Made by a program: the position numbers and the translations under genes | The notes under the pieces: model-generated | What the model was told of the DNA's origin: nothing | The model's input: the letters and a program-made list of their open reading frames with translations, nothing else | Database searches by the model: none | In this document: piece by piece, positions 1-11,654 of the stretch | Layout: each line of letters opens with the position of its first letter | Numbering within the stretch: position 1 is the stretch's first letter | Assembly (NCBI GenBank): GCA_900754775.1 | Contig: CAAEDZ010000284.1 | Span: forward strand, 1-13,067 | Origin: Clostridia bacterium | Lineage (GTDB): Bacteria; Bacillota_A; Clostridia; Christensenellales; Aristaeellaceae | Direction: 5' to 3' | Length of the DNA stretch: 13,067 bases

Positions 1-39
1 CCATGCCCGGAAATGATACTTCGCCGAGGAGGAGTGCCC

Positions 40-576
40 ATGAATCAATGGGACGACCAAGAATGGTTTAACAGCATTTATCATAATACACGGAAACAGC
101 TTTTCCTGGCAATGCTTCGGATCGCCAGGAACCATCCACTCCTAAAAGACAATGTTGATGAGCTACTGGCCGATACATATTATGAGCTGTACAGAAACCG
201 TGAAAAGCTACGGATGCACCCGAATCTCTGTGCTTGGCTGATAACCACATTGAAGTACAAGTCATATGATAAACTCCGCGAAAAACTGCAAGAGTGCGGA
301 AACCGCGATTGGCTGGCCGAAATCGACGAGTATTCTACCGCTTCCAATGTCCTTTCTCCTGAAGATGCTTACATACGGAAAGAAACCATCCGGGAAATTC
401 GCAAGATGATTTCAGACATGATCGGTGAAAAAGGGTTGATGGTAATGGAAGCTCACTACTGCCATCACATTTCGCTGAAGGAGCTGGCTGCGCGCATGGG
501 AATGTCCCACAGCGCACTCAAGATGCAGATGTATCGGTGGCGAAGAAAGCTTGGCAAAAGGGGGTGGAAGATCTGA
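40..576 (+). CDS. ECF-like sigma-70 family RNA polymerase sigma factor
   Basis: A 178-residue protein with the two-domain layout of extracytoplasmic-function sigma factors. Residues about 5-85 form a helical region 2 that would bind core polymerase and the -10 element. Residues about 118-174 are region 4, with the helix-turn-helix at about 145-166 (LKELAARMGMSHSALKMQMY) for the -35 element. The ATG at 40 is chosen over the in-frame ATG at 13 because a GAGGAGGAG ribosome-binding site at 26-34 lies five bases before it. Its stop TGA shares one base with the start of the next gene (TGATG), so the two are translationally coupled. The DUF4367 membrane protein that follows makes it a likely signal-responsive sigma factor held by that partner. 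Its promoter would lie beyond the left edge. The target genes are unknown; the downstream secreted protein is one candidate. Confidence 0.88.
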   Translation: MNQWDDQEWFNSIYHNTRKQLFLAMLRIARNHPLLKDNVDELLADTYYELYRNREKLRMHPNLCAWLITTLKYKSYDKLREKLQECGNRDWLAEIDEYSTASNVLSPEDAYIRKETIREIRKMISDMIGEKGLMVMEAHYCHHISLKELAARMGMSHSALKMQMYRWRRKLGKRGWKI

Positions 577-1493
577 TGAATGTTAAGTTTTCGAGAATAT
601 TCTCCAAAATGCGTTACCTTTTTTCTGCGCGTCACGATAATAAAGTGAAAGTGATGCAAATGGCACATGCCGGGGACAGTGGGTTAAAGAGGAAGCAGGT
701 GATGCGGAGAGAAAAAGGAGAATTTCTGGAGCAAGACCCCGACTTTGAAGCCATGACCACCGAAGAGATTCTTGCGTTTTTTGAAGCGCTTGAATCTGAC
801 GTTACTGATGAAGAACTCGAAGAGATAAGCAGAAGAATCTATCCAAAGATCATCACGCGAATTGAGCGTGAACAGCAGAAGAAGGAAGACAAGCATCGAC
901 GAATAGGACGAAAGGGGTTGGCAGCAGCTGTCATTTGCTCACTGCTCGCAGTCAGCGCCATTGCCCAAGCCTTGGGCGTCCCCGTCTGGGATTCGGTGAT
1001 CCAGTGGACAGAGGAACACTTTATCATGCAGTTTTTTCCCTCGCAAAGCGCGATGATGGCGATGGATGTTTCGCAGAAGAACATCTCTGCCGCAGTCCAT
1101 GAAACATGGGGAGATGAAGTGTGCGATGCTCTAATGGAACTGGATAGCGTGCCGGATCTACCTACGTGGAAGCCGGAAGGGTTCAGATTGGAGAGGACAA
1201 AAACATCCATTATACCTACTGGAGGTTGGATGTTTTTTGCAGTATATACTGACGATGCAGGCAATGGATTGGTGCTGAATATTGAAGAACTTTCTGCGCA
1301 AGACCCGGATTACAACATTGAGTACGAACGAAATGCTCATTCCGGTAAAGTTGTGGAACACGACGGTATACAGTACTACTATATGGAAAATATGGATCGT
1401 TCCAAGATAGTTTGGCTTCAAGATGGGGTTGCTTTGTATATCTCGGGAGATTTTAATGAACAAGATGCTTACCGAATGGTTGAATCGATTTAG
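576..1493 (+). CDS. Membrane protein with DUF4367 ectodomain, probable anti-sigma factor
   Basis: A 305-residue, single-pass membrane protein. About 113 N-terminal residues are cytoplasmic, rich in charged residues and include a helical Glu-rich stretch (MTTEEILAFFEALESDV) before a Lys/Arg-rich juxtamembrane segment. One membrane helix follows at about 114-136 (KGLAAAVICSLLAVSAIAQA). The C-terminal half ends in a DUF4367-like module (FFAVYTDDAGNGLVLNIEEL, then VVEHDGIQYYYMENM and IVWLQDGVALYISGDF). In Clostridia this domain commonly sits on the outside of proteins encoded next to ECF sigma factors, where it is thought to sense an envelope signal. The cytoplasmic part would bind the sigma factor encoded just upstream, with a one-base overlap. 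The start at 576 has a GGGGTGG site eight bases upstream. An in-frame ATG at 702 with a GAGGAAG site is an alternative. The anti-sigma role is inferred from context. Confidence 0.8.
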   Translation: MNVKFSRIFSKMRYLFSARHDNKVKVMQMAHAGDSGLKRKQVMRREKGEFLEQDPDFEAMTTEEILAFFEALESDVTDEELEEISRRIYPKIITRIEREQQKKEDKHRRIGRKGLAAAVICSLLAVSAIAQALGVPVWDSVIQWTEEHFIMQFFPSQSAMMAMDVSQKNISAAVHETWGDEVCDALMELDSVPDLPTWKPEGFRLERTKTSIIPTGGWMFFAVYTDDAGNGLVLNIEELSAQDPDYNIEYERNAHSGKVVEHDGIQYYYMENMDRSKIVWLQDGVALYISGDFNEQDAYRMVESI

Positions 1494-1513
1494 TTGAAAA
1501 AAGAGGGTGAGCA

Positions 1514-1951
1514 ATGAAGAAGTTTATCTCTTGCATTATGCTCATAATAATTGTTTTTTCCGCAGTTTCGATATGGACGTTTGCTGAGGACAATCCTGAA
1601 GTAATTCCGCCAGAGAGGCGCGCAAGTGAGCTGATTGACGCAATTTCCTGTTCACTCGTCCGCAACGGAAGAAGTTTGACTGCATCTTGCACGGTCCGCG
1701 CGACATACTTTGCAGATAAAATTGGCGTCACTAGCTTTTCAATTCAAGAAAAACGGAATGGCGATTGGGTATCGGTCAAATCGGTGAAGGATAGTTACTG
1801 CTATGATGATATAAGCTACACAGGTGGATTAACATACACGGGCAGAAAAGGATATGAATATCGTGCGGTCGCCAATTTCTATGTAAAAGATGGTTCATTG
1901 ACCGATACAGATAGCAAAACCAGCTCTGTACGGACGATTCCCAATACATAG
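1514..1951 (+). CDS. Small secreted protein, DUF6147-like
   Basis: A 145-residue protein that starts with a clear signal peptide: Lys-Lys, a hydrophobic core over residues 4-22 and a likely cleavage after Ala24 (WTFA before EDNP). The mature part of about 120 residues is rich in beta-prone Ser, Thr and Tyr and has three cysteines (46, 59, 96). The C-terminal pattern YTGGLTYTGRKGYEYRAVANF resembles the small secreted DUF6147 family of gut Clostridia. That assignment is from memory of the family pattern and is tentative. A GAGGGTGAG ribosome-binding site at 1503-1511 sets the start. The gene follows the anti-sigma gene by 20 bases and ends at a strong terminator, so it is the last member of a three-gene operon. 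It could be an effector controlled by the system or the ligand sensed by the DUF4367 domain. No enzymatic motif is visible. Confidence 0.78.
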   Translation: MKKFISCIMLIIIVFSAVSIWTFAEDNPEVIPPERRASELIDAISCSLVRNGRSLTASCTVRATYFADKIGVTSFSIQEKRNGDWVSVKSVKDSYCYDDISYTGGLTYTGRKGYEYRAVANFYVKDGSLTDTDSKTSSVRTIPNT

Positions 1952-1963
1952 CATCTCAATCCT

Positions 1964-1998
1964 AGCCGGCTCCCTTTGGAGTCGGCTTTTTTATTTTT
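1964..1998 (+). terminator. Rho-independent terminator of the sigma/anti-sigma operon
   Basis: A 10-base-pair stem (AGCCGGCTCC with GGAGTCGGCT, one G-U pair) and a CTTT loop are followed directly by a run of T. It starts 12 bases after the stop codon of the secreted-protein gene. Confidence 0.93.
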
Positions 1999-2155
1999 TG
2001 GTCACGGAGCATTGGGAAATGTTTTACGAATCCACTGTCGCCCCGTTACTTTCCCCCATATTTTCACAATAGATAAAGTGAGGACAGTGCTCTTGCCCGC
2101 TCGACCCAAATGGTGGGATAGACACACATGCTCACACGCGCGAGAGGCCCTCCGC

Positions 2156-2287
2156 GCCTCCCTTCGGCTGATTTGCAAAAGCAATGATCCGAAGGTGTGG
2201 CGGTGGCCGCGGGCCTTGTTTGCGCTGCCCTCTTCTTTCAGTCCGCTTGCTGCCCCTTCGGATCGTTCCGACCATCCGAAGGGAGGC
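2156..2287 (+). promoter_or_regulatory. Leader with four complementary segments covering the orf7-like ribosome-binding site
   Basis: Four segments can pair in two ways. Segment 1 is 2156-2167 (GCCTCCCTTCGG), segment 2 is 2186-2195 (GATCCGAAGG), segment 3 is 2254-2264 (CCCTTCGGATC) and segment 4 is 2276-2287 (CCGAAGGGAGGC). Segments 1 and 4 match perfectly over 12 bases, with 2 and 3 nested inside over 10. In the alternative fold, 3 pairs with bases 2274-2283 over 10 and 1 pairs with 2 over 7. Segment 4 contains the GGGAGG ribosome-binding site of the gene starting at 2293, so both folds would hide it wholly or in part. The complementarity is seen directly; a regulatory role is inferred. No protein-coding gene is visible in 1999-2292. 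Confidence 0.5.
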
Positions 2288-2292
2288 AAACA

Positions 2293-2658
2293 ATGAACGC
2301 AAAAGATTCGCTGCGCGCCCGCTTCACCGTGTATATGAGCAAGGTCTTGTACCATTCGCGCATCGACTATATCCGCAAAAAGCAGCGGACGGAAGCCTTT
2401 GAGATCTTGACGCAGGATGCCCTGCGCATGGCGCAGCAAAAAGAGGAGTTGCCCGCGGAAGAGAGCCAACAGTTATTGGCCGCAACGCAGGTGGCAGGGC
2501 TATCACCGGCAGAGCTGGATGTTCTTCGCAAGTTCTTCTACGAAGAGAGGGACATGCGGGAGATCGCCCATGAGATGTGCATATCCCTCCGCGGTGCATA
2601 TGTCATCAAGGATCGCGCCCTGAAAAAGCTCAGGAGGGCGCTCCTCGAGGAGGGATAG
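2293..2658 (+). CDS. Sigma-70 region 4-like regulator, Tn916 Orf7 type
   Basis: A 121-residue protein. The N-terminal 50 residues are basic and helical (YHSRIDYIRKKQRTEAFE). Residues about 62-118 form a sigma-region-4-like helix-turn-helix (LSPAELDVLRKFFYEERDMR, then EIAHEMCISLRGAYVIKDRA). It lacks a full region 2, as do the orf7-type proteins of Tn916 elements, which act in controlling transcription of the element. The ATG at 2293 is preferred over an in-frame GTG at 2197 because a GGGAGG site lies six bases upstream; the longer start would add a Cys/Phe-rich N-terminus of no recognisable kind. That ribosome-binding site is embedded in the four-segment leader structure, so translation may be controlled. 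The gene is four bases from the orf8-like gene, and the two are surely one transcription unit. Confidence 0.85.
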   Translation: MNAKDSLRARFTVYMSKVLYHSRIDYIRKKQRTEAFEILTQDALRMAQQKEELPAEESQQLLAATQVAGLSPAELDVLRKFFYEERDMREIAHEMCISLRGAYVIKDRALKKLRRALLEEG

Positions 2659-2662
2659 CGAT

Positions 2663-2854
2663 ATGATGGATTTCTCGATCTTGCTCCGAAAGGCGCAGGA
2701 AGGCAGCCTGGAGGCCACAGAATGCCTGTTGATGATGTACATGCCCATGATCGAAAAGTACGCAAGACTGGATGGAGCAATGGATGAGGACATGCGGCAG
2801 CACCTCATCGTTTGCTTCCTGTTAGCCCTGCGGAAGTTCCAAACGGATTCCTGA
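2663..2854 (+). CDS. Small helix-turn-helix-like protein, Tn916 Orf8 type
   Basis: A 63-residue, mostly helical acidic protein (ILLRKAQEGSLEATECLLMM, then YMPMIEKYARLDGAMDEDMR). This pattern of an N-terminal 'KAQEGSLEA' helix followed by 'MPMIEKYA' is that of the small orf8-like proteins found after orf7 in Tn916-type elements, described as a truncated sigma region 2 or HTH_16 domain. Its exact role is not established. Together with the preceding region-4-like protein it looks like a sigma factor split over two genes. The GAGGAGGG site at 2647-2654 lies eight bases before the first of two adjacent ATG codons; the second, at 2666, could equally be used. The gene ends 16 bases before a terminator stem. 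Confidence 0.8.
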   Translation: MMDFSILLRKAQEGSLEATECLLMMYMPMIEKYARLDGAMDEDMRQHLIVCFLLALRKFQTDS

Positions 2855-2870
2855 TTCCACTTTCAGACCG

Positions 2871-2899
2871 AGGCCGTCGCGTGCAGCGGCGGCCTTTTT
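2871..2899 (+). terminator. Rho-independent terminator after the orf7/orf8-like genes
   Basis: A 10-base-pair stem (AGGCCGTCGC with GCGGCGGCCT, one G-U pair) and a five-base loop are followed by TTTTT. It separates the regulator pair from the excisionase-integrase unit. Confidence 0.92.
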
Positions 2900-3326
2900 G
2901 TTAAGTTTCAAATTTGCACAAAAAACCATTCAATTTTGGCTGTACCCATACGCTCTTATTTATAGAGGGATGAAAACACCCTTCATCGCACTTTGACAAT
3001 TTCATATACGATGTTGCAGGTACAGTTCCCCGCGTGGAAGAGCGGCAAATGGAGCGGCGCGACGATGGCCGGTGGCCGGAGCGATCCACGCAATCCATTG
3101 CCCCTGCCGTGGCAGGCAGGGCGCGACGACACGGCGCGGGTATAATGAGACTTCTTCACGGCCTCCCACAGACTTGAGGGGGAGTCCCTGCGGCAGGCGC
3201 TTGTCCAGGGGACGACGCTGCCCGCGGGGCTATGTTGCGGATGTGCCGTCCGCAGCCTGGAACATCGCCGTCCCTGTTTTCCATTTTTTGACGATGGATG
3301 CCTTCAGAACCACAAAAACCATATCG
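2900..3326. other. Non-coding stretch inside the element, no gene seen
   Basis: About 430 bases lie between the regulator terminator and the excisionase promoter. Reading frames here have no ribosome-binding site and unnatural composition. Visible features are an AT-rich first 60 bases, a short GATGAA/TTCATC inverted repeat near 2970-2990, a TTGACA at 2993-2998 without a matching -10, a TATAAT at 3141-3146 without a -35, and short inverted repeats such as CCTGCC/GGCAGG near 3105. No confident function is assigned. Confidence 0.5.
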
Positions 3327-3355
3327 TTGACAGTTGGCCGGGGATACCGTATCAT
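3327..3355 (+). promoter_or_regulatory. Sigma-A-type promoter of the excisionase-integrase unit
   Basis: A perfect -35 TTGACA at 3327-3332 and a -10 TATCAT at 3350-3355 are exactly 17 bases apart. Transcription would start near 3362 and give a leader of about 48 bases before the excisionase gene. Confidence 0.8.
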
Positions 3356-3371
3356 GCAACTACATTGCATG
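3353..3371. promoter_or_regulatory. Dyad overlapping the excisionase promoter start point, possible operator
   Basis: CATGCAA at 3353-3359 and TTGCATG at 3365-3371 form a perfect seven-base inverted repeat with a five-base spacer. It overlaps the last bases of the -10 element and the expected start of transcription, the position of a repressor operator. The binding protein is unknown. Confidence 0.5.
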
Positions 3372-3409
3372 CCACGAACACCGGCTGAAGATGGGAGGAG
3401 GAAACGATT

Positions 3410-3625
3410 TTGATCGCAGAACAGACCGGCATGCGCAAGAGCGTAGGGAAAAGGACGTATTCCGTGGATGAAGTCCGTGAGATTCTTGGGATCAGCCGAA
3501 GGAAGGCATACGATTTGTGCAACTCTGACATTTTCAAAGTCATCCGTGTAGGCCGGGCCTTGCGCGTTTCCAAGGTGTCGTTTGACCAGTGGCTGGACGG
3601 ATGCGAAGAGAGCGGAGGCGAATAG
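3410..3625 (+). CDS. xis: Excisionase, MerR-like helix-turn-helix
   Basis: A 71-residue protein with one winged helix-turn-helix domain at about residues 16-63 (TYSVDEVREILGISRRKAYD, then FKVIRVGRALRVSKVSFDQW). This is the DNA-binding excisionase pattern in which a recognition helix is followed by a short basic wing and an 'F..W' end. Excisionases bend DNA at the element ends and direct the integrase towards excision. The start is a TTG at 3410, chosen because GGAGGAGG at 3394-3401 lies eight bases before it; the ATG at 3431 would lack a good site. The weak start codon behind a strong ribosome-binding site may set a low dose. The gene is five bases from the integrase start and both would come from the promoter at 3327-3355. 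Confidence 0.88.
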   Translation: MIAEQTGMRKSVGKRTYSVDEVREILGISRRKAYDLCNSDIFKVIRVGRALRVSKVSFDQWLDGCEESGGE

Positions 3626-3629
3626 AAAG

Positions 3630-5018
3630 ATGGCGTCCATCGTCAAAAGAGGGAAGAAATATGCCGTCGTCTACTATGAGGGTGAGGGCAAGAAGCGGCA
3701 TCAGGTATGGGAATCCGGCCTGAGCTACACCGCGGCAAAAGCGCGCAAGGCACAACTCGAATATGAGATTTCCCAGCATACCCACATTATGCGCAGTTCG
3801 CTGTCGGTTGCAGATTTCATGCAGGAGTTCCTCCGCAAGTACGGCGAGAAGAAGTGGGTGGCATCCACATACAAAAACAATGTCGCCATGCTGGAGAATT
3901 ATGTCCTCCCATATCTGGGCGAGAAGAAGTTGCAGGACGTCCGGGTCAAGACCGTGGACGACTATTACTACTTCCTGGTGAATGAGGCAGAGCCAGTCGC
4001 CAACATGGGGCAGCCGCGCCGCAAACACGTCACCACGGCGGTCATACGCGACGTCCATAAAATGTTACGCTGTGCATGGAATGTGGCTGTGCGCTGGGAA
4101 TATGTGGGCAAGAACCCCTTCCTGCACGCCACACCGCCGGAACACAAGGAAAAAAAGCGCAAGGCGCTCACGCCCTCGCAGCTCCAGAAGGTACTTGAGT
4201 TTACCGACCGGCCCGACATATACGATTACTTTGTCATGCACTGCGCGATGCAGCTTGCCTTTGCCTGCTGCATGCGCGGCGGGGAAGTGGGCGCCGCGCA
4301 GTGGGACCGATACGACCCCGAAAGCGGCATTTTGTACATTGACCGCTTGATCGACCGTGTGGACAAGAAGCTGGCCGAAAGATTGCCGAAGATGGAGATC
4401 AAGTACCGCTTCCCCAACCTCTATCCGGGTACGCGGACGGTGATCGTGCTTAAACAGCCCAAGACGGAGGGGAGCATACGCAATGTGTACCTGCCCAAGA
4501 CTGTGGTGTACAAGCTGGAAAAGCTGCGGAAAATACAGGACAAGTTCCACATGGAGCTTGGCGACGATGGCTACATGGATTATGGGCTGATTATCTGTCA
4601 GGCCAACGGACGCCCCTGCATGACAGAACATCTGAACCATTGGTTCAAGGACATCCTTGAGACAATGAATGACCCGGAGCTTGACCCCAATGAATACGTC
4701 TTTCACAGTATCCGCCATACCAGCGCGGGCTTAAAGCTGCGCATTTCCAAGGGCGACATTAAATCCGTACAAGGCGATGGCGGCTGGAACACACCTGACA
4801 TGGTGACGAAGCGCTACGCCGACATACTGGACGAAGACCGGCAGATACTGGCGGCGGAAATGGAGAAGAAATTTTACCAGGCCGCCATCGACGCGGGGGC
4901 AGCAAAGCTGTCAGTAGACGCCAGTGCAATCACTGCCATGTTGAAGGAAAACCCGGAATTGCTCAGGCAAGTCCTTCAGTCCGTCCAGTTACCCCCTGCG
5001 GAGGGAGGCGAAAATTAG
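3630..5018 (+). CDS. int: Tyrosine recombinase, element integrase
   Basis: A 462-residue site-specific recombinase that would cut and rejoin DNA at the attachment sites. Residues 1-50 form an arm-binding AP2-like domain (VKRGKKYAVVYYEGEGKKRH). Residues about 58-165 are the SAM-like core-binding domain. The catalytic domain begins near 178. Catalytic residues visible are Arg216 (CMRGGEVGAA), Lys278 in the beta-hairpin (PKTEGSIR), His359 and Arg362 (HSIRHTS), Trp386 at the usual second His position (GDGGWNTP) and the nucleophile Tyr396 (KRYADIL). Trp at that position is a known alternative in the family. A C-terminal extension of about 55 residues follows. Start at 3630 has GGAGG eleven bases upstream. 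The distance from its stop to the intact tRNA is about 240 bases, and direct repeats between them may be its arm sites. Confidence 0.96.
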   Translation: MASIVKRGKKYAVVYYEGEGKKRHQVWESGLSYTAAKARKAQLEYEISQHTHIMRSSLSVADFMQEFLRKYGEKKWVASTYKNNVAMLENYVLPYLGEKKLQDVRVKTVDDYYYFLVNEAEPVANMGQPRRKHVTTAVIRDVHKMLRCAWNVAVRWEYVGKNPFLHATPPEHKEKKRKALTPSQLQKVLEFTDRPDIYDYFVMHCAMQLAFACCMRGGEVGAAQWDRYDPESGILYIDRLIDRVDKKLAERLPKMEIKYRFPNLYPGTRTVIVLKQPKTEGSIRNVYLPKTVVYKLEKLRKIQDKFHMELGDDGYMDYGLIICQANGRPCMTEHLNHWFKDILETMNDPELDPNEYVFHSIRHTSAGLKLRISKGDIKSVQGDGGWNTPDMVTKRYADILDEDRQILAAEMEKKFYQAAIDAGAAKLSVDASAITAMLKENPELLRQVLQSVQLPPAEGGEN

Positions 5019-5108
5019 CAACGGCAAAGGAGGCCCCGAATGGGCATATTAGCAAATTCCCGCTGAATATGTGCGCATAGCGTCCCTGTTAGGCGGATTT
5101 ATTAGCAA
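5014..5108 (+). repeat. Three ATTAGCAA direct repeats, candidate integrase arm sites
   Basis: ATTAGCAA occurs at 5014-5021 (over the integrase stop codon), 5048-5055 and 5101-5108, all in the same orientation. The last two share the longer TATTAGCAAA. Repeats of this size between an integrase gene and the element end are typical arm-type binding sites for tyrosine integrases. The match is seen; the role is inferred. Confidence 0.5.
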
Positions 5109-5148
5109 AAAATCCAGCGTGTTTGTACCCGCCTGCGCGGGGCAAACA

Positions 5149-5176
5149 GGGGACGATGTCCGTGCAAAACGTCCCC
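5149..5176. repeat. Inverted repeat GGGGACG/CGTCCCC
   Basis: A perfect seven-base inverted repeat (5149-5155 and 5170-5176) with a 14-base spacer lies between the direct repeats and the tRNA terminator. It may be part of the recombination site, but no T run follows and its role is unknown. Confidence 0.3.
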
Positions 5177-5206
5177 CAGCCGGCGACGGCAACGGCGGGT
5201 GGAAGC

Positions 5207-5255
5207 AAAAGGGAAAAGTGCCGAAAACCCTTGATTTTATTGGGTTTTCGGCACT
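5207..5255 (-). terminator. Terminator of the tRNA-Arg transcript
   Basis: A perfect 14-base-pair hairpin (AGTGCCGAAAACCC at 5217-5230 with its complement at 5242-5255) has an 11-base loop. Read on the minus strand, it is followed by TTTCCCTTTT. It begins five bases after the CCA end of the intact tRNA. The plus strand has no T run after the stem, so it serves the tRNA and not the integrase gene. Confidence 0.8.
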
Positions 5256-5260
5256 GTGGA

Positions 5261-5337
5261 TGGCGCACCCGGAGGAACTCGAATCCACGGCCTACTGCTT
5301 AGGAGGCAGTCGCTCTATCCCACTGAGCTACGGGTGC
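5261..5337 (-). tRNA. tRNA-Arg (anticodon CCT), complete with encoded CCA
   Basis: The minus strand folds into a full 77-base cloverleaf: acceptor GCACCCG with CGGGTGC, D stem GCTC with GAGC, anticodon stem ACTGC with GCAGT around loop CTCCTAA (anticodon CCT, reads AGG), a five-base variable loop, T loop TTCGAGT and an encoded GCCA end. The T stem (GTGGA with TCCTC) contains one T-T mismatch at its second pair. No good promoter lies directly upstream; the nearest is the consensus promoter at 5451-5479, so this tRNA would be transcribed together with the broken tRNA half. It may be a resident gene or a copy carried by the element. Confidence 0.95.
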
Positions 5338-5395
5338 ATGTATGCGGTTTTGAGGTCTCACCCAAGCCGCCCAAAAACGAACACTGTTGGTCTTT

Positions 5396-5434
5396 TTAGG
5401 AGGCGGCCGCTCTATCCTGCTGAGCTACAAGTGC
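5396..5434 (-). pseudogene. 5' half of a second tRNA-Arg (CCT), broken after the anticodon loop
   Basis: The minus strand reads as a normal tRNA 5' half: acceptor GCACTTG, TA, D arm GCTC-AGCAGGATA-GAGC, anticodon 5' arm GCCGC and loop CTCCTAA (anticodon CCT). The sequence then departs completely. There is no GCGGC to close the anticodon stem at the right place, no T arm and no CAAGTGC to close the acceptor before the next tRNA. It cannot make a tRNA. It shares GCCTCCTAA with the intact tRNA. The clean break right after the anticodon loop matches a crossover at an anticodon-loop attachment site. Confidence 0.85.
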
Positions 5435-5450
5435 ATGTGCGGCAACGTTC

Positions 5451-5479
5451 ATTATACGGTTTTTCCCCGCGCTTGTCAA
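5451..5479 (-). promoter_or_regulatory. Perfect-consensus promoter for the tRNA-Arg unit
   Basis: On the minus strand TTGACA (5474-5479) and TATAAT (5451-5456) are exactly 17 bases apart, a perfect match to the vegetative consensus. The start point would be near 5444, about ten bases before the broken tRNA half. Such strength is usual for stable RNA genes. The transcript would run through the broken half and the intact tRNA to the terminator at 5207-5255. Confidence 0.92.
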
Positions 5480-5527
5480 GCCAAAGCGCATGAAATCGGC
5501 GCGCGGCGCACAAAATAGAAAAAAGGC

Positions 5528-5722
5528 GTGCCATGCGGCGCGCGAAGCGGGGAAAAGGGGGCGGGGCCTATCTGGGCGGCGATCGTGGCGGTGACGCTTT
5601 TGACGCTTTTGTTCGCCTGGGCGCTGTGCAAGGCGGCGGCGGAGGCGGACCGGCAAATGGCGGAGGCGTTCTTCCGGCGGCAGGCGGAGGCGCTGGGCGG
5701 CGCGGAGGACGAACAGGGCTAG
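5528..5722 (+). CDS. Possible small membrane protein
   Basis: A 64-residue frame with one hydrophobic helix at about residues 15-34 (IWAAIVAVTLLTLLFAWALC), then an amphipathic charged tail (AAEADRQMAEAFFRRQAEAL). Nearly every codon ends in G or C, as in the neighbouring chromosomal genes, and the hydrophobic-then-charged layout looks like a real single-pass protein. Against it, the start is a GTG at 5528 with no convincing ribosome-binding site, no promoter is seen, and an overlapping GC-rich frame covers the same DNA. A later start such as the GTG at 5585 is possible. Function is not recognised. Confidence 0.42.
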   Translation: MPCGARSGEKGAGPIWAAIVAVTLLTLLFAWALCKAAAEADRQMAEAFFRRQAEALGGAEDEQG

Positions 5723-5837
5723 GACGCGCGCGCAGGAACGGAGGATGGGTGAGCGCCCCGGCGGGGGCGGGATGGGGAGAAAAAGCGGAGCCGCAAAACA
5801 AGCTCAATGTCGCACGCCCCCGCGCGGGCGCAACGAT

Positions 5838-5904
5838 GCGCCGGGGCCATCGCGCCCGGCGCTTGCGTGGTCAGGGCCGCCCCGTGAGGCATCGCGGGGC
5901 GGCC
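5838..5904. terminator. Two GC-rich hairpins between convergent genes
   Basis: A perfect 8-base-pair hairpin (5838-5845 with 5855-5862) and a perfect 10-base-pair hairpin (5875-5884 with 5895-5904) lie just beyond the end of the PPC-type gene. Neither is followed by a T run on either strand, so they may slow polymerase or protect the 3' end rather than act as classic terminators. Confidence 0.45.
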
Positions 5905-5921
5905 TTATGCGTTCCTGCCGC

Positions 5922-6767
5922 TTACTGCCCCAGCAGGCCCACCAAGCCCAGCAGCAGCGGGCTTACGGCGCTATCGTCGGTCGTGACAGCCTCGGGCGCG
6001 GCTTCGGGCGGGGCGGCCTCGGGCACGGCGGCGGCCTCCGCATCCTCGGGCGCGTAGACGGCCTTGAGGGTGTAGGGACCCTTGTTTCCGCATATGTCGA
6101 TGTAATACGTGCCCGCGGGCAGCGTCATTTCCTCGGCGTAGCCCTTGAAGCCGTATTTATCGTCGATCTTCACCATGTCGCCATCGTAGAGCATCAGATT
6201 GGGCATGAGGCTCTCCAGCGTGGTGTTGGCGGTCAAGTAGACCTGCGTCTCCGCGCCGAGGGTGAAGGTATAATAGTCGTGTTCGTCCCACTGGGTCAGC
6301 ACGCCGCTGAGCGTCTCGCCCGAGGGCAGCGCCTGCGCGCCGAGGTAGGTGTCGTTGTCGTCCGTTTCCGTGCTGGCGCAGGGCTCGAGGATGCCCTTGA
6401 GGCGGAAATCGCCCTGCGAAGAATCGTTGCCGACGCGGACGTAATACGTCCCCGGCTCCAGATAATAGACAAAGTCCTGCGTCTCGGGCGCGCCGGCGGT
6501 GCCGTTGAAGTAGCCCTCGTCCCACTCGATGAGGTCGGCGTCAAGCAATTCCACGTGGCCGCCGCAGAACAGCTGCGCGCGCACGGTCACGAGGCCCACC
6601 TGTTCCACGGTGAAGGGATAGTAGTGGTACTCGCCGGGGCGGGTGGAGCCATTTACCCATGTATCGTCGAGCGCGAACGGCGCATGTTCGATGAACTGCG
6701 TGTCGTCGGCCAGCGCCACGGGCAGCGCCAGCAAAAGCGCCAGAAGAAGCAGGACGCACTTGCGCAT
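5922..6767 (-). CDS. Secreted protein with two PPC-like beta domains
   Basis: A 281-residue exported protein. Residues 1-20 are a signal peptide (MRKCVLLLLALLLALPVALA before DD). Two similar beta-sandwich domains follow at about 35-127 and 133-238. Each carries the pre-peptidase C-terminal (PPC) pattern of a 'D/E-x-Y-Y-x-F' strand early on and a 'PGTYYV' or 'AGTYYI' turn near the end (PGEYHYYPF with YLEPGTYYVRV; EHDYYTFTL with LPAGTYYIDI). An Ala/Pro/Glu-rich linker (240-262) leads to a short hydrophobic end (SPLLLGLVGLLGQ) with no sorting motif and no positive tail. PPC domains usually sit beside proteases; here there is no enzyme. The start at 6767 has AAGGAAGG six bases upstream. The gene follows the flavodiiron gene by 64 bases and has no visible promoter of its own, so it is probably read through from that gene. 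Confidence 0.85.
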   Translation of the reverse strand: MRKCVLLLLALLLALPVALADDTQFIEHAPFALDDTWVNGSTRPGEYHYYPFTVEQVGLVTVRAQLFCGGHVELLDADLIEWDEGYFNGTAGAPETQDFVYYLEPGTYYVRVGNDSSQGDFRLKGILEPCASTETDDNDTYLGAQALPSGETLSGVLTQWDEHDYYTFTLGAETQVYLTANTTLESLMPNLMLYDGDMVKIDDKYGFKGYAEEMTLPAGTYYIDICGNKGPYTLKAVYAPEDAEAAAVPEAAPPEAAPEAVTTDDSAVSPLLLGLVGLLGQ

Positions 6768-6800
6768 AAGGAACCTTCCTTTCGATGCGATGAAAGCAAA

Positions 6801-6824
6801 GCGGGGGAGATACGCCTCCCCCGC
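6801..6824 (-). terminator. Weak terminator or processing hairpin after the flavodiiron gene
   Basis: GCGGGGGAG (6801-6809) pairs perfectly with 6816-6824 around a six-base loop. On the minus strand the stem is followed by TTTGCTTTC, a weak T tract. It lies between the stop of the flavodiiron gene and the ribosome-binding site of the PPC-type gene, so it may lower the expression of the second gene. Confidence 0.6.
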
Positions 6825-6831
6825 CGTTGTT

Positions 6832-8628
6832 TTACCCGATCGGTTCAAAATCGGCCGCGCCGTGCTTGCACAGCGGGCAGACAAAGTCGTCCGGCAACGT
6901 GTCGCCCTCGTAGATGTAGCCGCACACCTTGCAGACGAAGCCCTTCTTGCCCTCGGTCTGGGGTTTGGGCTTGACGTTGTTCTGGTAATAGGTGTAGGTC
7001 ATGGTCTCGCGCTCGCTCATCACGCGCGCCTCCTCCACGGAGCAGATGAACATGCCGTGGGAGCCGAGGTCGATGTAGTTTTCCACCTTCAGGGACATGA
7101 AGGCGTTGATAAAGCGCGGCAGGAACACAAGGCCGTTGTCCGAGCGCGGCAGTTCTTCCTCGAAGCTGGCGAACTTGTCCACCGTGCGGCCGCTCTGGAA
7201 GCCGAAGATCTCAAAGACCTTGAAGGGCGCGTCCACGGACAGGCAGTTGACGTTCATCACGCCCGTCTGCTTGATGACGTGGTGGGAGTAGTTGGCCTTG
7301 TTGATGGTCACGGCCACGCGGTTGGGCGAATCGGTCACCTGCGAGACGGCGTTGACGATGAGGCCGTTGTCCTTTTTGCCGTCGTTGGAGGTGACCACAT
7401 AGAGGCCGTAGCCGATGCGGAAGAGGGCGGTCATGTCCTTTTTGTTGGCGGTCTTTTCCGAGCGGGCCATGTAGTCCTGACACAGTTCCCCGGCGACCTT
7501 TTCAAGCTGTTCGCGGCTCTGCGCGTCCAGCGCGGAGCGGATGCGCACCACGGGCTCTACGAACTCGATGTTCTTGCAGGGGGCGAGCATGTCCTTCATC
7601 ACCTTGGCGGCCAGCGGCGCCCAAGTGCCGTTTTCGATCAGCGCCACGGTGCGCTTCTGGAAGTTGCGCTCGGTCAGGTGGTCGATGAACTCGCGCATGA
7701 AGGGGAAGATGCCGGCGTTGTAGGTGGTGGTGGCCAGAACCAGCTTGTTGTAGCGGAAGGCGTCCTCCACGGCCTCGGCCATGTCGCAGCGGGCCAGATC
7801 GTGGACGGTGACCGCCGGGCAGCCCTTTTCGCGCAGCAGGTCGGCCAGCGCCTCCACGGCCTTCTTCGTGTGGCCGTAGACCGAGGTGTAGGCGATGACG
7901 ATGCCGTCGCTCTCCGGCGTGTAGGAAGACCACAGGTCGTACAGGCGGATGTACTCGCCGAGGTTTTCCGTGAGGATGGGGCCGTGCAGCGGGCAGATAA
8001 TGGCGATGTCCAGCCCGGCGGCCTTCTTCAAAAGCGCCTGCACCTGCGCGCCGTACTTGCCGACGATGCCGATGTAGTAGCGGCGGGCCTCGCAGGCCCA
8101 TTCCTCCTCCACATCCAGCGCGCCGAACTTGCCAAAGCCGTCGGCGGAGAAGAGGATCTTGTCGGCGCTGTCGTAGGTGACCATGACCTCCGGCCAGTGT
8201 ACCATGGGCGCGAAGACGAAGGTAAAGGTGTGGCGGCCGGTGGTCAGCGTGTCGCCGTCCTTGACCACGAGGCGGTTTTCATAGGCGCAGCCGAAGAACT
8301 GCTCCATCATCGCAAACGTCTTGGCATTGCCCACCACGGTGACGTCCGGGTAGGTCCTGACAAAATTGTCGATGTTGGCGGAGTGGTCCGGCTCCATGTG
8401 CTGCACGATGAGGTAGTCCGGCTTGCGGCCGTTCAGCGCCGCCTCGACATTGTCCAGCCACTCGTGGGTGAAGTGCTGGTCCACGGTGTCGAACACGCAG
8501 ACCTTTTCGTCCAGCACGACGTAGGAATTGTAGCTCATGCCGTTGGGCACGACGTACTGGCCCTCAAACAGATCGACGGCATGGTCGTTCACGCCGACAT
8601 AGACGACGTCTTTGGTTATATAGTGCAT
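6832..8628 (-). CDS. Multidomain flavodiiron protein (oxygen/NO reductase) with flavin reductase and rubredoxin domains
   Basis: A 598-residue cytoplasmic protein made of four modules. Residues 1-240 are the metallo-beta-lactamase-like diiron domain, with all ligands present: His77, Glu79, Asp81, His82 (HMEPDH), His144, Asp163 and His215. Residues 243-385 are the FMN-binding flavodoxin domain ([13 protein letters not shown], then [13 protein letters not shown]). Residues about 397-548 are a flavin-reductase-like domain ([20 protein letters not shown]). Residues 561-598 are a short rubredoxin with Cys566, Cys569, Cys584 and Cys587. Flavodiiron proteins reduce oxygen to water or NO to nitrous oxide and protect anaerobes. 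The extra modules could pass electrons from a reduced pyridine nucleotide to FMN and on to the diiron site within one chain. The start has GGGAGGT six bases upstream. A promoter lies at 8662-8690. Confidence 0.96.
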
Positions 8629-8661
8629 GCGGGGACCTCCCTTGCGTTTTCTTCCATCAAT

Positions 8662-8690
8662 AGTATACTATACCGGCGCGGGAATGTCCA
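8662..8690 (-). promoter_or_regulatory. Promoter of the flavodiiron gene
   Basis: On the minus strand TGGACA (8685-8690) and TATACT (8662-8667) are exactly 17 bases apart. Transcription would begin near 8655 and give a leader of about 27 bases. The promoter is back to back with that of tdh, about 75 bases away. Confidence 0.78.
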
Positions 8691-8765
8691 TGCGCGAACG
8701 GAAATTTTCCCCGCCCTGTCCGCCGCGCGCGGACGGCGGTACGCGAAGGAATACAGCCGCCGCGG

Positions 8766-8794
8766 TTGCATTTTCTTTGATTTCATGTTATAAT
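8766..8794 (+). promoter_or_regulatory. Promoter of the tdh-kbl operon
   Basis: TTGCAT (8766-8771) and a perfect TATAAT (8789-8794) are exactly 17 bases apart. Transcription would start near 8801, about 138 bases before the tdh start codon. Confidence 0.82.
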
Positions 8795-8800
8795 ATTAAC

Positions 8801-8938
8801 AGGGGAACTGTCTCTTTTCGCAAACCATCCATTCTTCACCGGCGCGACCGCTCGTTTTTTTCACAGACCGCATCCCGAACGACGAAAGCCGAACGCCTGC
8901 GGGCGGGGAGCTTTCTTTCCCATCCAGAGAAGGGGGCG
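8801..8938 (+). other. Untranslated leader of tdh
   Basis: About 138 bases separate the predicted transcript start from tdh. They contain a run of seven T at 8854-8860, but no strong stem precedes it and no known riboswitch was recognised. The leader is long enough for control at the RNA level, but nothing clear supports it. Confidence 0.4.
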
Positions 8939-9985
8939 ATGTTCGTGCTTATGGACGCGCTCGTAAAGCCGCGGCGGGGGCCGGGGCTGGAGCTTGTGCG
9001 CGTGGAGGTGCCGGAGCCGGGCTGGGGCGAGGTGCTGATCCGCATCCGCAAGACGGCCATCTGCGGAACCGACGTACATATCTACAACTGGGACCCTTGG
9101 GCGGAGAAAAACATCTCCCCGCCGCTGATCGTCGGCCACGAATACGTGGGCGAGATCGCCCGCCTCGGGCCGGGCGTCAAGGGTCTGCGGGAGGGGCAGC
9201 GCGTCAGCGGCGAGGGCCACATCGTCTGCGGCCACTGCCGCAACTGCCGCGCCGGCAACGGCCAGTGGTGCAAAAACACCGTGGGCGTGGGCGTGCAGCG
9301 CAATGGTGCCTTTGCCCAGTACCTCTGCCTGCCGGCCACGAACGTGGTGCCGCTGGAGGACGATTACCTGCCCGAGGACGTGATCGCCTTTTTCGACGCC
9401 TACGGAAACGCCACCCACACGGCGCTGCAGTTCGACGTGGTGGGCGAGGACGTGCTGGTCACCGGCGCGGGGCCGATCGGCATCATGGCGGCGGCCATCT
9501 GCAAGAAAAACGGCGCGCGCAAGGTCATCATCACGGACTTGAACGACTACCGCCTCGATCTGGCGCGCAAAATGGGCCTGTTCGCCGTCAACACCGGGCG
9601 CGACGATCTGGGCGAGGTCATGCGCCAAAGCCACATGCGCGAGGGCTTCGACGTGGCGCTGGAAATGTCCGGCAGCGAGGCCGCCGTACACCAGATCGTC
9701 TCCCACATGCGCAACGGCGGCAAGATCGCGCTGCTTGGCATCTTCAAGGACGAGGCGCGCGTGGACGTCAACGAGATCATCTTCAAGGGGCTGACCGTGC
9801 AGGGCGTCTACGGCCGCAAGATGTACGAAACGTGGTACAAGATGGCGGCGATGATTGAGGGCGGGCTGGATCTCACGCCCATCATCACCCACCGCTTCCA
9901 CTACACCGAATTTGAAAAGGGCTTTGCCGCCATGAACAGCGGGAAGAGCGGCAAGGTGATTCTGGATTGGAGGAATGAGCCGTGA
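8939..9985 (+). CDS. tdh: L-threonine 3-dehydrogenase
   Basis: A 348-residue zinc-dependent medium-chain dehydrogenase that oxidises L-threonine to 2-amino-3-ketobutyrate with NAD. It is close to the E. coli enzyme over its whole length ([17 protein letters not shown], then [17 protein letters not shown]). Visible residues are the catalytic zinc site Cys42, His67 and Glu68 (with Asp45 nearby), structural zinc cysteines 97, 100, 103 and 111, the NAD-binding GAGPIG at 176-181 and Asp200 for the ribose. The end reads [11 protein letters not shown], as in true threonine dehydrogenases. The ATG at 8939 follows AGAAGGGGG by two to three bases; the ATG at 8951 would give a length closer to the 341-residue E. 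coli enzyme but has no good site. The gene overlaps kbl by four bases (GTGA), and the two form the threonine-to-glycine pathway. Confidence 0.97.
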
Positions 9986-11163
9986 AAGACGCCCTGCGCT
10001 TTTACGAGGCGGAACTTGCCGCCATCCGCGAGGCCGGCACCTACAAGGACGAGCGCATTATCACCACCCCGCAGCGCTCGCGCATAGACACCACCAGGGC
10101 AGATGGCGTTTTGAACCTCTGCGCCAACAACTATCTGGGGCTGGCCGACAGCGCGGAGCTGATCGCCGCCGCCAAGGCAAGCTACGACCGCTGGGGCTTC
10201 GGCCTTGCCAGCGTGCGCTTTATCTGCGGCACGCAGGATCTGCACCGCGAACTGGAAACGCGGCTTGCCGCCTTCCTCGGCATGGAGGACGCCATCCTCT
10301 ATTCCAGCTGTTTCGACGCCAACGGCGGCCTGTTTGAAACGCTTCTGGGGCCGGAGGACGCGGTCATTTCCGACGAACTCAACCACGCCTCGATCATCGA
10401 CGGCGTGCGCCTGTGCAAGGCCCAGCGCCTGCGCTACAAGAACAACGACATGGCCGACCTGCGCGCCAAGCTGGAAGAGGCCGCCGGCGCGCGCGTCAAA
10501 CTCATCGCAACCGACGGCGTGTTTTCCATGGACGGCATCATCGCCAACTTGCCCGCCATCTGCGATCTGGCCGAGGAATACGGCGCGCTTTTGATGGTGG
10601 ACGACAGCCACGCCGTGGGCTTCATGGGCGCGCACGGGCGCGGCACGCCGGAATACGCCCATGTGGAGGGCCGCGTGGACATACTCACCGGCACGTTCGG
10701 CAAGGCGCTGGGCGGCGCCTCCGGCGGCTACACGGCGGCGAGCAAGACGGTCGTAGACCTGCTCCGGCAGAAGTCCCGCCCCTACCTGTTTTCCAACACC
10801 GTGGCCCCGGCCGTGTGCGCCGCCACGCTCAAGACGCTCGATTTGCTGGAGACCTCCACCGCCCTGCGCGACAAACTGGCCGACAACACCGCCTACTTCC
10901 GCGCCGAACTGCGCAAGGTGGGCCTCACCGTGCCGGAGGGCGAACACCCCATCGTGCCGGTGATGCTCGGCGACGCGCGCGTGGCCGGGGAGTTCGCCGC
11001 GCGCATGCTCGAAAAGGGCGTGTACGTGGTCAGCTTCAGCTACCCCGTGGTGCCCAAGGGCAAGGCGCGCATCCGCACGCAGGTCAGCGCCGGCCACAGC
11101 CGCGAAGACCTCGATTTCGCCGTCTCCTGCTTCCGCGAAGTGAAGGAAGAGATGGGCCTGTAA
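9982..11163 (+). CDS. kbl: Glycine C-acetyltransferase (2-amino-3-ketobutyrate CoA ligase)
   Basis: A 393-residue PLP enzyme of the alpha-oxoamine synthase family that splits 2-amino-3-ketobutyrate with CoA into glycine and acetyl-CoA. It takes the unstable product of the threonine dehydrogenase encoded just upstream. Family blocks are complete: CANNYLGLA near 47, [10 protein letters not shown] at 77-86, [12 protein letters not shown] at 105-116, His135 (stacks on PLP), Asp207 and His210 (VDDSHAVGF) and the PLP lysine Lys241 ([13 protein letters not shown]). The length is close to the 398 residues of the E. coli enzyme. The start is a GTG at 9982 whose last two bases begin the tdh stop codon; GGAGGA at 9969-9974 lies seven bases upstream. 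The GTGA overlap implies coupled translation, which suits two enzymes that share a labile intermediate. Confidence 0.97.
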
Positions 11164-11232
11164 CGACCATTCCCCGGGGAGTTCCCCCCCTTCCCGCTCC
11201 CCGCGTTTGAACGCCAGCAAGCCCGACCGACC

Positions 11233-11277
11233 GCGGGCGGCGCGCCTTCCCCCACCCCCTTGGGCAGCGCCGCCCGC
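11233..11277 (+). terminator. GC-rich hairpin after kbl
   Basis: GCGGGCGGCGC (11233-11243) and GCGCCGCCCGC (11267-11277) form a perfect 11-base-pair stem with a 23-base loop. No T run follows, so it could be a Rho-associated or RNA-stabilising hairpin rather than a classic terminator. The small membrane protein downstream may therefore be partly read through from tdh-kbl. Confidence 0.5.
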
Positions 11278-11352
11278 CCCCGCCGCACACCGCGGCGCGC
11301 CCGCCGCCGTCCGTTGTAAACGCCCGCAAACGGCACGCAAGGAGGGATCGAT

Positions 11353-11493
11353 ATGCCGTTCGTCATCGTAGTGGGCTTTGTGCTATTGTGGTTGCTGATC
11401 GGAAGAAAGAAAGAGAAAAACGCCGCCGGACTGGACGCGCGGCGCCTCGGTCTGGACGAAGGATTGGTCATCCTCGAGGGCGAGACCGACTGA
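11353..11493 (+). CDS. 46-residue small membrane protein
   Basis: A short gene with a clear ribosome-binding site, AAGGAGGGA at 11339-11347, six bases before the ATG. The protein starts with a hydrophobic helix at residues 2-16 (PFVIVVGFVLLWLLI), followed by GRKKEK and a charged C-terminal tail of about 25 residues (LDARRLGLDEGLVILEGETD). The Arg/Lys cluster right after the helix predicts an outside N-terminus and a cytoplasmic tail. It stands alone between the kbl hairpin and a strong terminator. No promoter of its own was recognised, so it may be read through from tdh-kbl. It is too short for most gene callers and matches no family that I recognise. The combination of a strong site, a well-formed helix and a terminator 40 bases later makes a real gene likely. 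Confidence 0.78.
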   Translation: MPFVIVVGFVLLWLLIGRKKEKNAAGLDARRLGLDEGLVILEGETD

Positions 11494-11533
11494 TACGACT
11501 GCCTGACCGACCATGATGACGGCGGACGCCCGC

Positions 11534-11566
11534 AAGGCCGCTTCCACGCGTGGAGGCGGCCTTTTT
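11534..11566 (+). terminator. Strong Rho-independent terminator after the 46-residue gene
   Basis: A 13-base-pair stem (AAGGCCGCTTCCA with TGGAGGCGGCCTT, one G-T pair) and a CGCG loop are followed by TTTTT. It insulates the next promoter from the genes upstream. Confidence 0.94.
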
Positions 11567-11592
11567 GCGTTGTAACATTTTTGCGACCAATC

Positions 11593-11621
11593 TTTACGTT
11601 TCTGTTCCAATATGCTATAAT
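11593..11621 (+). promoter_or_regulatory. Promoter of the TPR-like repeat protein gene
   Basis: TTTACG (11593-11598) and a perfect TATAAT (11616-11621) are exactly 17 bases apart. Transcription would begin near 11628, about 27 bases before the start codon. Confidence 0.78.
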
Positions 11622-11654
11622 GGAAATGTGTTTTATGCCAAAGGAGGAGAACAT

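Follow-up and report, generated by a model that had tools for sequence, protein, structure and literature searches.

The stretch of DNA analysed here (the window) comprises 13,067 nucleotides of contig CAAEDZ010000284.1 from a Clostridia bacterium of the Aristaeellaceae and contains a severed host tRNA gene next to a complete one. On the minus strand, a promoter-like site (5451–5479) with TTGACA at 5479–5474, a 17-nt spacer and TATAAT at 5456–5451 lies upstream of the severed gene; its score of 16.5 was equalled by none of 500 shuffled sequences. The severed gene (5396–5434, minus strand, 39 nt) is the 5′ half of a host tRNA-Arg(CCT) with acceptor strand, D arm and anticodon loop. It ends exactly at the loop CTCCTAA (5396–5402), and the next bases, AAAGACC, cannot pair as the 3′ strand of the anticodon stem. 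An earlier sequence-only reading, according to which promoter, acceptor strand, D arm and loop are kept and the tRNA ends at the very next base, was thereby confirmed. A 58-nt linker (5338–5395, minus strand), unrelated in sequence to tRNA and without a promoter-like site (best score 0.2, p = 0.96), separates the half from a complete tRNA-Arg(CCT) gene with encoded CCA (5261–5337, minus strand). ARAGORN identified the latter as the single tRNA of the whole window (5337–5261), and it scored 66.2 bits against the Rfam tRNA model, compared to 68.9 bits for the unbroken gene of a relative described below (G007). Severed and complete tRNA-Arg(CCT) are different in sequence. Past the complete gene follows a terminator-like hairpin (5214–5254, minus strand) with a 13-bp stem and TTTT, part of which folds at −19.6 kcal/mol; the same reading had placed a complete tRNA-Arg(CCT) with terminator 58 nt on and before the integrase gene, in agreement with sequence, ARAGORN and Rfam. 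Because other genomes show the same arrangement with a different sequence, chance is a poor explanation for it.

The integrase gene is located on the far side of the complete tRNA and encodes a tyrosine integrase of 463 aa (3627–5018, plus strand, reading frame open from 3582; Pfam Phage_integrase, 1.7e-11, and Phage_int_SAM_3), which is matched by at least 504 proteins at E ≤ 1e-60. It is preceded on the same strand by genes for a sigma-70 region 4 protein (2197–2658; PF04545, 5.4e-7), an HTH_16 protein (2663–2854; PF12645, 1.8e-10) and an HTH_17 or excisionase-like protein (3410–3625; PF12728, 2.1e-12), the last of which reached 26.5 bits against TIGR01764, under the cut-off of 28.8 bits. 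Tn916 has sigma-like, HTH_16, excisionase-like and integrase genes in this order at one end; it is not known to be tRNA-specific and inserts into AT-rich, non-tRNA targets. The element in the window combines a gene order of the Tn916 type with a different target, the anticodon loop of a tRNA. No phage structural gene was recognised among the frames scanned in the 5.4 kb of element contained in the window, no transfer genes were recognised in the same visible 5.4 kb, and the window DNA found no match in phage and plasmid collections.

The host flank on the other side of the break encodes a protein of about 320 aa (5922–6884) and a flavodiiron-type flavoprotein (6832–8628), both on the minus strand and in the same order in the relatives G007 and G006, and further holds genes for threonine dehydrogenase and glycine C-acetyltransferase. 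At the break, the G+C content shifts from 51.5% (1–5395) to 64% (5440–13067). The arginine codons AGA and AGG account for 21 of 91 in six element frames versus 4 of 84 in four host frames, so that the element itself might gain from a tRNA reading AGG. Two further features were observed in the host part: a short inverted repeat at 5872–5905 that recurs twice near the same locus in G007 and is possibly a dispersed repeat, and a repetitive minus-strand open frame rich in serine, alanine and proline at 12410–12751.

The matching flank was found on contig C37 of G007, a genome of the same genus, with 92% identity over 2 kb and 87% over the 318 bp up to the break; its flavoprotein is 97.5% identical to that of the window over the 403 aa present. 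At the break site, G007 has a single unbroken tRNA-Arg(CCT), identical to the window half over its first 39 nt (39/39), and no broken half; ARAGORN detected no second tRNA in the 12 kb read at this locus. Comparison with an element-free relative had been proposed as a check by the sequence-only reading, and it yielded one complete gene in place of the pair. An unbroken gene without a second tRNA indicates that the half is the resident gene and that the complete tRNA arrived with the insert. At the same host locus, G006 contains a related element, with identities to that of the window of 79% in DNA over 2.8 kb and 84% in the integrase. The carried tRNAs of the two genomes differ at 1 of 77 letters and the broken halves at 7 of 39; the linkers resemble each other when compared by eye. 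The attL of G006 was not found on its contigs C30, C77 and C42. The T arm of the carried tRNA is unusual, with an A53-U61 pair, a position which is usually G-C, and a U-U mismatch; an identical arm is present in the G006 copy.

Both ends of such elements were located in other relatives. On a 327-kb contig of G075, about 93 kb separate the 5′ half (near 198.8 kb) from the 3′ half (near 105.8 kb), with the complete tRNA about 0.28 kb inside the 5′ half end and the integrase at 174.8–176.1 kb. In G484, assembled as a single 2.76-Mb contig, the element measures about 51 kb: the 5′ half has its core at 154.75 kb, shortly followed by the carried tRNA (154.84 kb), and the integrase (204.4 kb) lies close to the 3′ half (206.17 kb). 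Monoglobus pectinilyticus NZ_OY725736.1 has the same junctions as G484, with 1000 of 1000 nt from the break in agreement, and its interval is annotated with ParA, MobC, a relaxase, VirD4- and VirB4-like proteins, an integrase and predicted tet genes. The integrative element of the window is most likely conjugative, with its conjugation genes, if present, outside the window. G359 belongs to another family than G484, and its integrase-end sequence is identical to that of G484 over 1000 of 1000 nt; at the tRNA end, both agree at 99.9% over 787 nt (786/787), followed by a short gap and then 96.3% identity. The carried tRNA of G359 is the same as in G484 and the host halves are different; both halves are on one contig with an element of about 49 kb. 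The G450 assembly splits such an element over two contigs, one with the 5′ half and carried tRNA, the other with the integrase and 3′ half.

In G075, G484, G359 and G450, the two ends share only the 7-bp loop CTCCTAA, the same core that forms the attR side in the window, and the complete tRNA is located at the promoter-side junction. When the two host halves were joined, a tRNA-Arg(CCT) was called in all five cases (these four genomes and Monoglobus), and the 3′ half paired with the broken half at 7/7 acceptor and 5/5 anticodon stem positions. As a control, pairing of the 3′ half with the carried tRNA gave 4–7 of 7 acceptor and 2–4 of 5 anticodon stem positions; the acceptor value of 7/7 came from G359, where just 3/5 of the anticodon stem pairs. 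ARAGORN applied to the carried 5′ half plus attL called a tRNA in G075 and G359 and none in G484, Monoglobus and G450. The search for a tRNA 3′ half at attL suggested earlier for the window was carried out in four relatives and Monoglobus, where this half belongs with the broken gene and not with the carried tRNA. The host tRNA is rebuilt at neither junction, judged from attR in the window and both junctions in G075, G484, G359 and G450: the base after the loop at the visible junction does not continue a tRNA as in ordinary tRNA-restoring integration, and the other junction of the relatives holds the host 3′ half.

A further candidate for both ends, G039, was rejected because its joined halves were not called as tRNA-Arg and no integrase was recognised among five frames scanned between them. 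This region of contig C13 (L059/L093, about 41.9–52.5 kb) has restriction-modification-like genes between two tRNA half-like pieces and an integrase-like fragment, recognised by eye, just outside of them. In G176, where half and complete tRNA are identical over the 5′ 39 nt, no 3′ half was found in the region scanned, from 62 to 133 kb.

Identities of integrase, carried tRNA and half were compared over 21 loci, and the six closest integrase pairs were examined separately; among the 21 integrase translations, that of Subdoligranulum contains a stop. The identities of integrase, carried tRNA and half were 1.00, 1.00 and 0.92 for G484–G359, 0.99, 1.00 and 0.77 for G619–G657, 0.96, 1.00 and 0.92 for G312–G314, 0.89, 0.97 and 0.92 for G075–G015 and 0.84, 0.97 and 0.82 for the window and G006. 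Carried tRNAs are therefore more alike than halves in five of the six pairs, and the direction is reversed in G019–G181 (0.88, 0.87 and 0.95). Over all 21 loci, distances of carried tRNAs did not correlate with those of integrases (Spearman 0.002, p 0.44), nor did integrase with half distances (−0.07), and carried tRNA and broken half distances correlated weakly (0.33, p 0.008). The absence of a global correlation with the integrase and the weak one with the half suggest that carried tRNAs were exchanged or replaced over long times, perhaps with host genes. From the comparison with G006 and from five of the six close integrase pairs, the complete tRNA is, as far as sequences can tell, a part of the element.

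The position of the window and G006 elements at the same host locus would also be expected if one old insertion had been inherited vertically, with both genomes sharing a fossil element whose carried tRNA is now a host gene. We consider this unlikely: the element DNA is 79% alike compared to 89–90% in two flanking coding stretches (77% in a third), the broken halves differ at 7 of 39 letters, and the near-identical element ends of G484 and G359 (1000/1000 and 786/787 nt) occur in two families. This explanation is compatible with a tRNA derived from the element. Much less probable, and in our view close to negligible, is the alternative raised by the sequence-only reading, by which the half is the decayed remnant of an old tandem tRNA duplicate and integration took place at the 3′ end of the intact copy. 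The order of complete tRNA, terminator and integrase is that of ordinary 3′-end integration, and three integrase relatives of the Thr group adjoin a complete tRNA without a half. Against a decayed duplicate speak its absence from G007, the break after the same loop at different loci, the 3′ half at the other end in four relatives, the change of composition across 5395–5440 and the complete tRNAs which are more alike than the halves in five of the six closest integrase pairs. Very probably, the element inserted in the anticodon loop of tRNA-Arg(CCT), left the halves at its two ends and supplied a complete tRNA behind the host promoter. The proposal that integration in the loop destroyed the resident gene and that the element brought a replacement is accordingly supported by G007, G006 and the ends found in relatives.

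Use of the host promoter was addressed by a promoter scan of 33 intervals from a half to the next tRNA or half, with single-test p values and upstream stretches of 100 nt, a length that exceeds most linkers. Upstream of the half, 21 of 33 stretches reached p < 0.05 and 12 did not (e.g. G302, G222, G359); three of the 12 (G124b, G192b, G559) come after a second half or after a tRNA that is known to be carried elsewhere. Within linkers, a promoter-like site at p < 0.05 was present in 6 of 30 testable cases (three more were too short), namely G141, Subdoligranulum, G559 and three of the Monoglobus type. The Monoglobus-type linker with its own site TTGACA-17-TAAAAT (score 14.5) and the other linkers of this group would be consistent with a carried tRNA that uses its own promoter and not that of the host. 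For the window, the low linker score given above points the other way. Moreover, the integrase occupies the promoter-side end in the window and G006 and the 3′-half end in G484 and G359, yet the carried tRNA is promoter-side in both arrangements, which fits the use of the host promoter. Expression from an own promoter thus appears improbable, and the carried tRNA of the window is presumably driven by the host promoter.

In the proposed mechanism, the tyrosine integrase would recombine the 7-bp anticodon loop of the resident gene with an identical 7 bp in attP. Because the shared core would be the loop alone, the host gene would not be rebuilt and its halves would remain at the two element ends; the left end of the window element is expected to hold the 3′ half accordingly. 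A complete tRNA-Arg(CCT) would adjoin attP and, after insertion, read in the same direction behind the severed 5′ half. Transcription from the host promoter would then run through the half-gene, the linker and the carried tRNA and stop at the carried terminator, and RNase P would free the carried tRNA from this transcript. That this tRNA functions in the cell and that the element can excise are likewise predictions of the scheme.

The integrase was detected at E ≤ 1e-40 in 24 of 308 genomes of the family, at 27 places. Half and complete tRNA lie within 1.5 kb of it at 15 of these places (11 Arg(CCT), 4 Thr(GGT)), a complete tRNA-Thr without a half at three, and neither within 1.5 kb at nine. 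Three of the nine (G075, G160, G015) have a half-plus-complete pair 13–26 kb away and two (G247:C1, G223) reach the contig end on the tRNA side; in G276, G105 (two places) and G165:C82, no tRNA was found in the stretches read, and G105:C10 has two matches of the tRNA 5′-arm pattern near 107.8 kb. In the class, 9 of 391 genomes carry such an integrase, five with an adjoining pair and two with an adjoining 3′ half; in G450 the 3′ half is 1.7 kb from the integrase and G497 has only a doubtful 3′-half-like stretch. The integrase protein matches 176 phage and 41 plasmid records, the best of which are four faecal contigs and two plasmid-labelled records with 33–37% identity. Among these six, Subdoligranulum variabile OY725843.1 has half and complete tRNA; in the Monoglobus record and the faecal contigs MT836186 and MT836781, the integrase is followed by a 3′ half. 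In the faecal contigs MT837272 and MT840067, neither half plus complete tRNA nor a 3′ half was found, and a scan of named genomes gave one partial match only.

Several variants of the layout were observed. L077, L080, L082 and L083 show half plus complete gene for tRNA-Thr(GGT), with integrases 25–27% identical to that of the window. The Thr branch shows both modes, since at L102, L130 and L131 (places of L078, L079 and L086) a complete tRNA-Thr has no half before it; in the Thr cases with a half, this extends a few bases beyond the anticodon loop. A second element type with a linker of about 240–260 nt and a carried tRNA starting GGTCCCG occurs at L057, L121, L122 and L060, and the pair is 13–26 kb from the integrase at the first three. 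In L088 (Acetatifactor MAG, 568–644), an integrase piece and a complete tRNA-Arg(CCT) behind TTGACA-17-TATAAT have no visible half. In L215 (G165:C66, minus 678), CTCCTAA lies between what appear to be a far element end and a linker, which resembles an attP or the junction of two elements in tandem.

Copies of the tRNA were searched with the 5′-arm pattern over 17 genomes, several of them incomplete; the pattern misses the third copy of G124 and may miss others. Within these limits, it occurs twice in G484, as broken half and carried tRNA, and no other complete copy was found. Two matches, half and carried, were likewise obtained for G359, G019, G141, G568, G625, G619, G075, G160, G006 and G450, and three for G559, where C49 holds a half together with its complete tRNA and C94 a complete tRNA behind another half. 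A tRNA-Arg(TCT), which might read AGG, is present in the genus mates G002–G004.

By hand count, about 62 of 308 family genomes have two or more matches of the pattern, some of these being separate loci. From 20 stretches read, 19 of which were chosen for paired or multiple pattern matches, a complete tRNA was found in 17 and the other three run off the contig first (G073, G165:C66, G190). Two or more halves are present in nine of the 20, with four in G125, and stacks of two to four tRNA-Arg(CCT) halves followed by one complete tRNA were observed in G125:C172 (L212), L204, L206, L207, L208 and L209. The first linker and middle half of G192 match the linker and carried tRNA of G160 with 98.5% identity over 340 nt and 39/39 in the half, which indicates that the next element inserted into a carried tRNA. 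Similarly, the half on C49 of G559 equals the tRNA carried in Subdoligranulum at 39/39 positions. The order of insertions can be read from such stacks of halves.

The same principle has been described as tRNA-dependent lysogeny for the actinobacteriophages Fionnbharth, LeBron and Gaia (Guerrero-Bustamante and Hatfull 2024, PMC10865867); according to the accessible part of this report, it was proven by experiment in mycobacteriophages, and Lactobacillus prophage Lj965 may be another case. Common to the phages, as described there, and the elements studied here are a tyrosine integrase, a host tRNA which is not rebuilt and a supplied complete tRNA of the same isotype. According to the same part, the phage core measures 8–17 bp inside the host tRNA gene versus 7 bp here, the Fionnbharth tRNA overlaps a phage gene with presumed upstream expression signals and that of Gaia lies 'downstream of Int', a position that may or may not correspond to the promoter-side junction at which the tRNA described here is carried. 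Further differences from the actinobacteriophages, on that description, are the Clostridia hosts, the conjugation genes where annotated and the carried tRNAs that are cut in turn. Prophage-related sequences of Sinorhizobium meliloti substitute a host tRNA by an introduced one, as here, in what the available text (PMC11476347) presents as alphaproteobacterial prophage-like regions; a related Sinorhizobium paper, in the portion at hand, describes phiLM21-like prophages without such tRNA-substituting features. For ICEMh1 (PMC6861422), the text available gives the anticodon loop as core, as here, but with an 11-bp repeat and a complete tRNA kept at one end, and describes no separate carried tRNA. 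In its accessible part, a Caldiarchaeum paper models disruption of tRNA-Thr by elements. Among the open-access matches listed, as far as their text was available, there was no report of conjugative elements of Clostridia acting in this way or of stacks of severed halves. The new aspects are therefore conjugative elements, Clostridia as hosts, placement behind the host promoter and serial replacement.

Taken together, a group of integrative and conjugative elements of Clostridia probably takes over a host tRNA permanently: it cuts tRNA-Arg(CCT), or tRNA-Thr(GGT) in one integrase branch, within the anticodon loop or immediately after it, captures the promoter and supplies a tRNA which becomes the target of the next element and gives rise to stacks of halves. 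The tRNA would thereby become property of the element, and loss of the element by deletion would be costly. With these findings, conjugative elements of Clostridia would join the phages of Actinobacteria as users of tRNA-dependent integration. The short core would free the element from matching the tRNA 3′ half of each host, as suggested by the same element ends in two families with different tRNAs. The ends of such elements may be placed wrongly by island finders, as these expect a rebuilt tRNA in some cases. For the bacteria concerned, this mode of integration would explain the horizontal replacement of a core translation gene.
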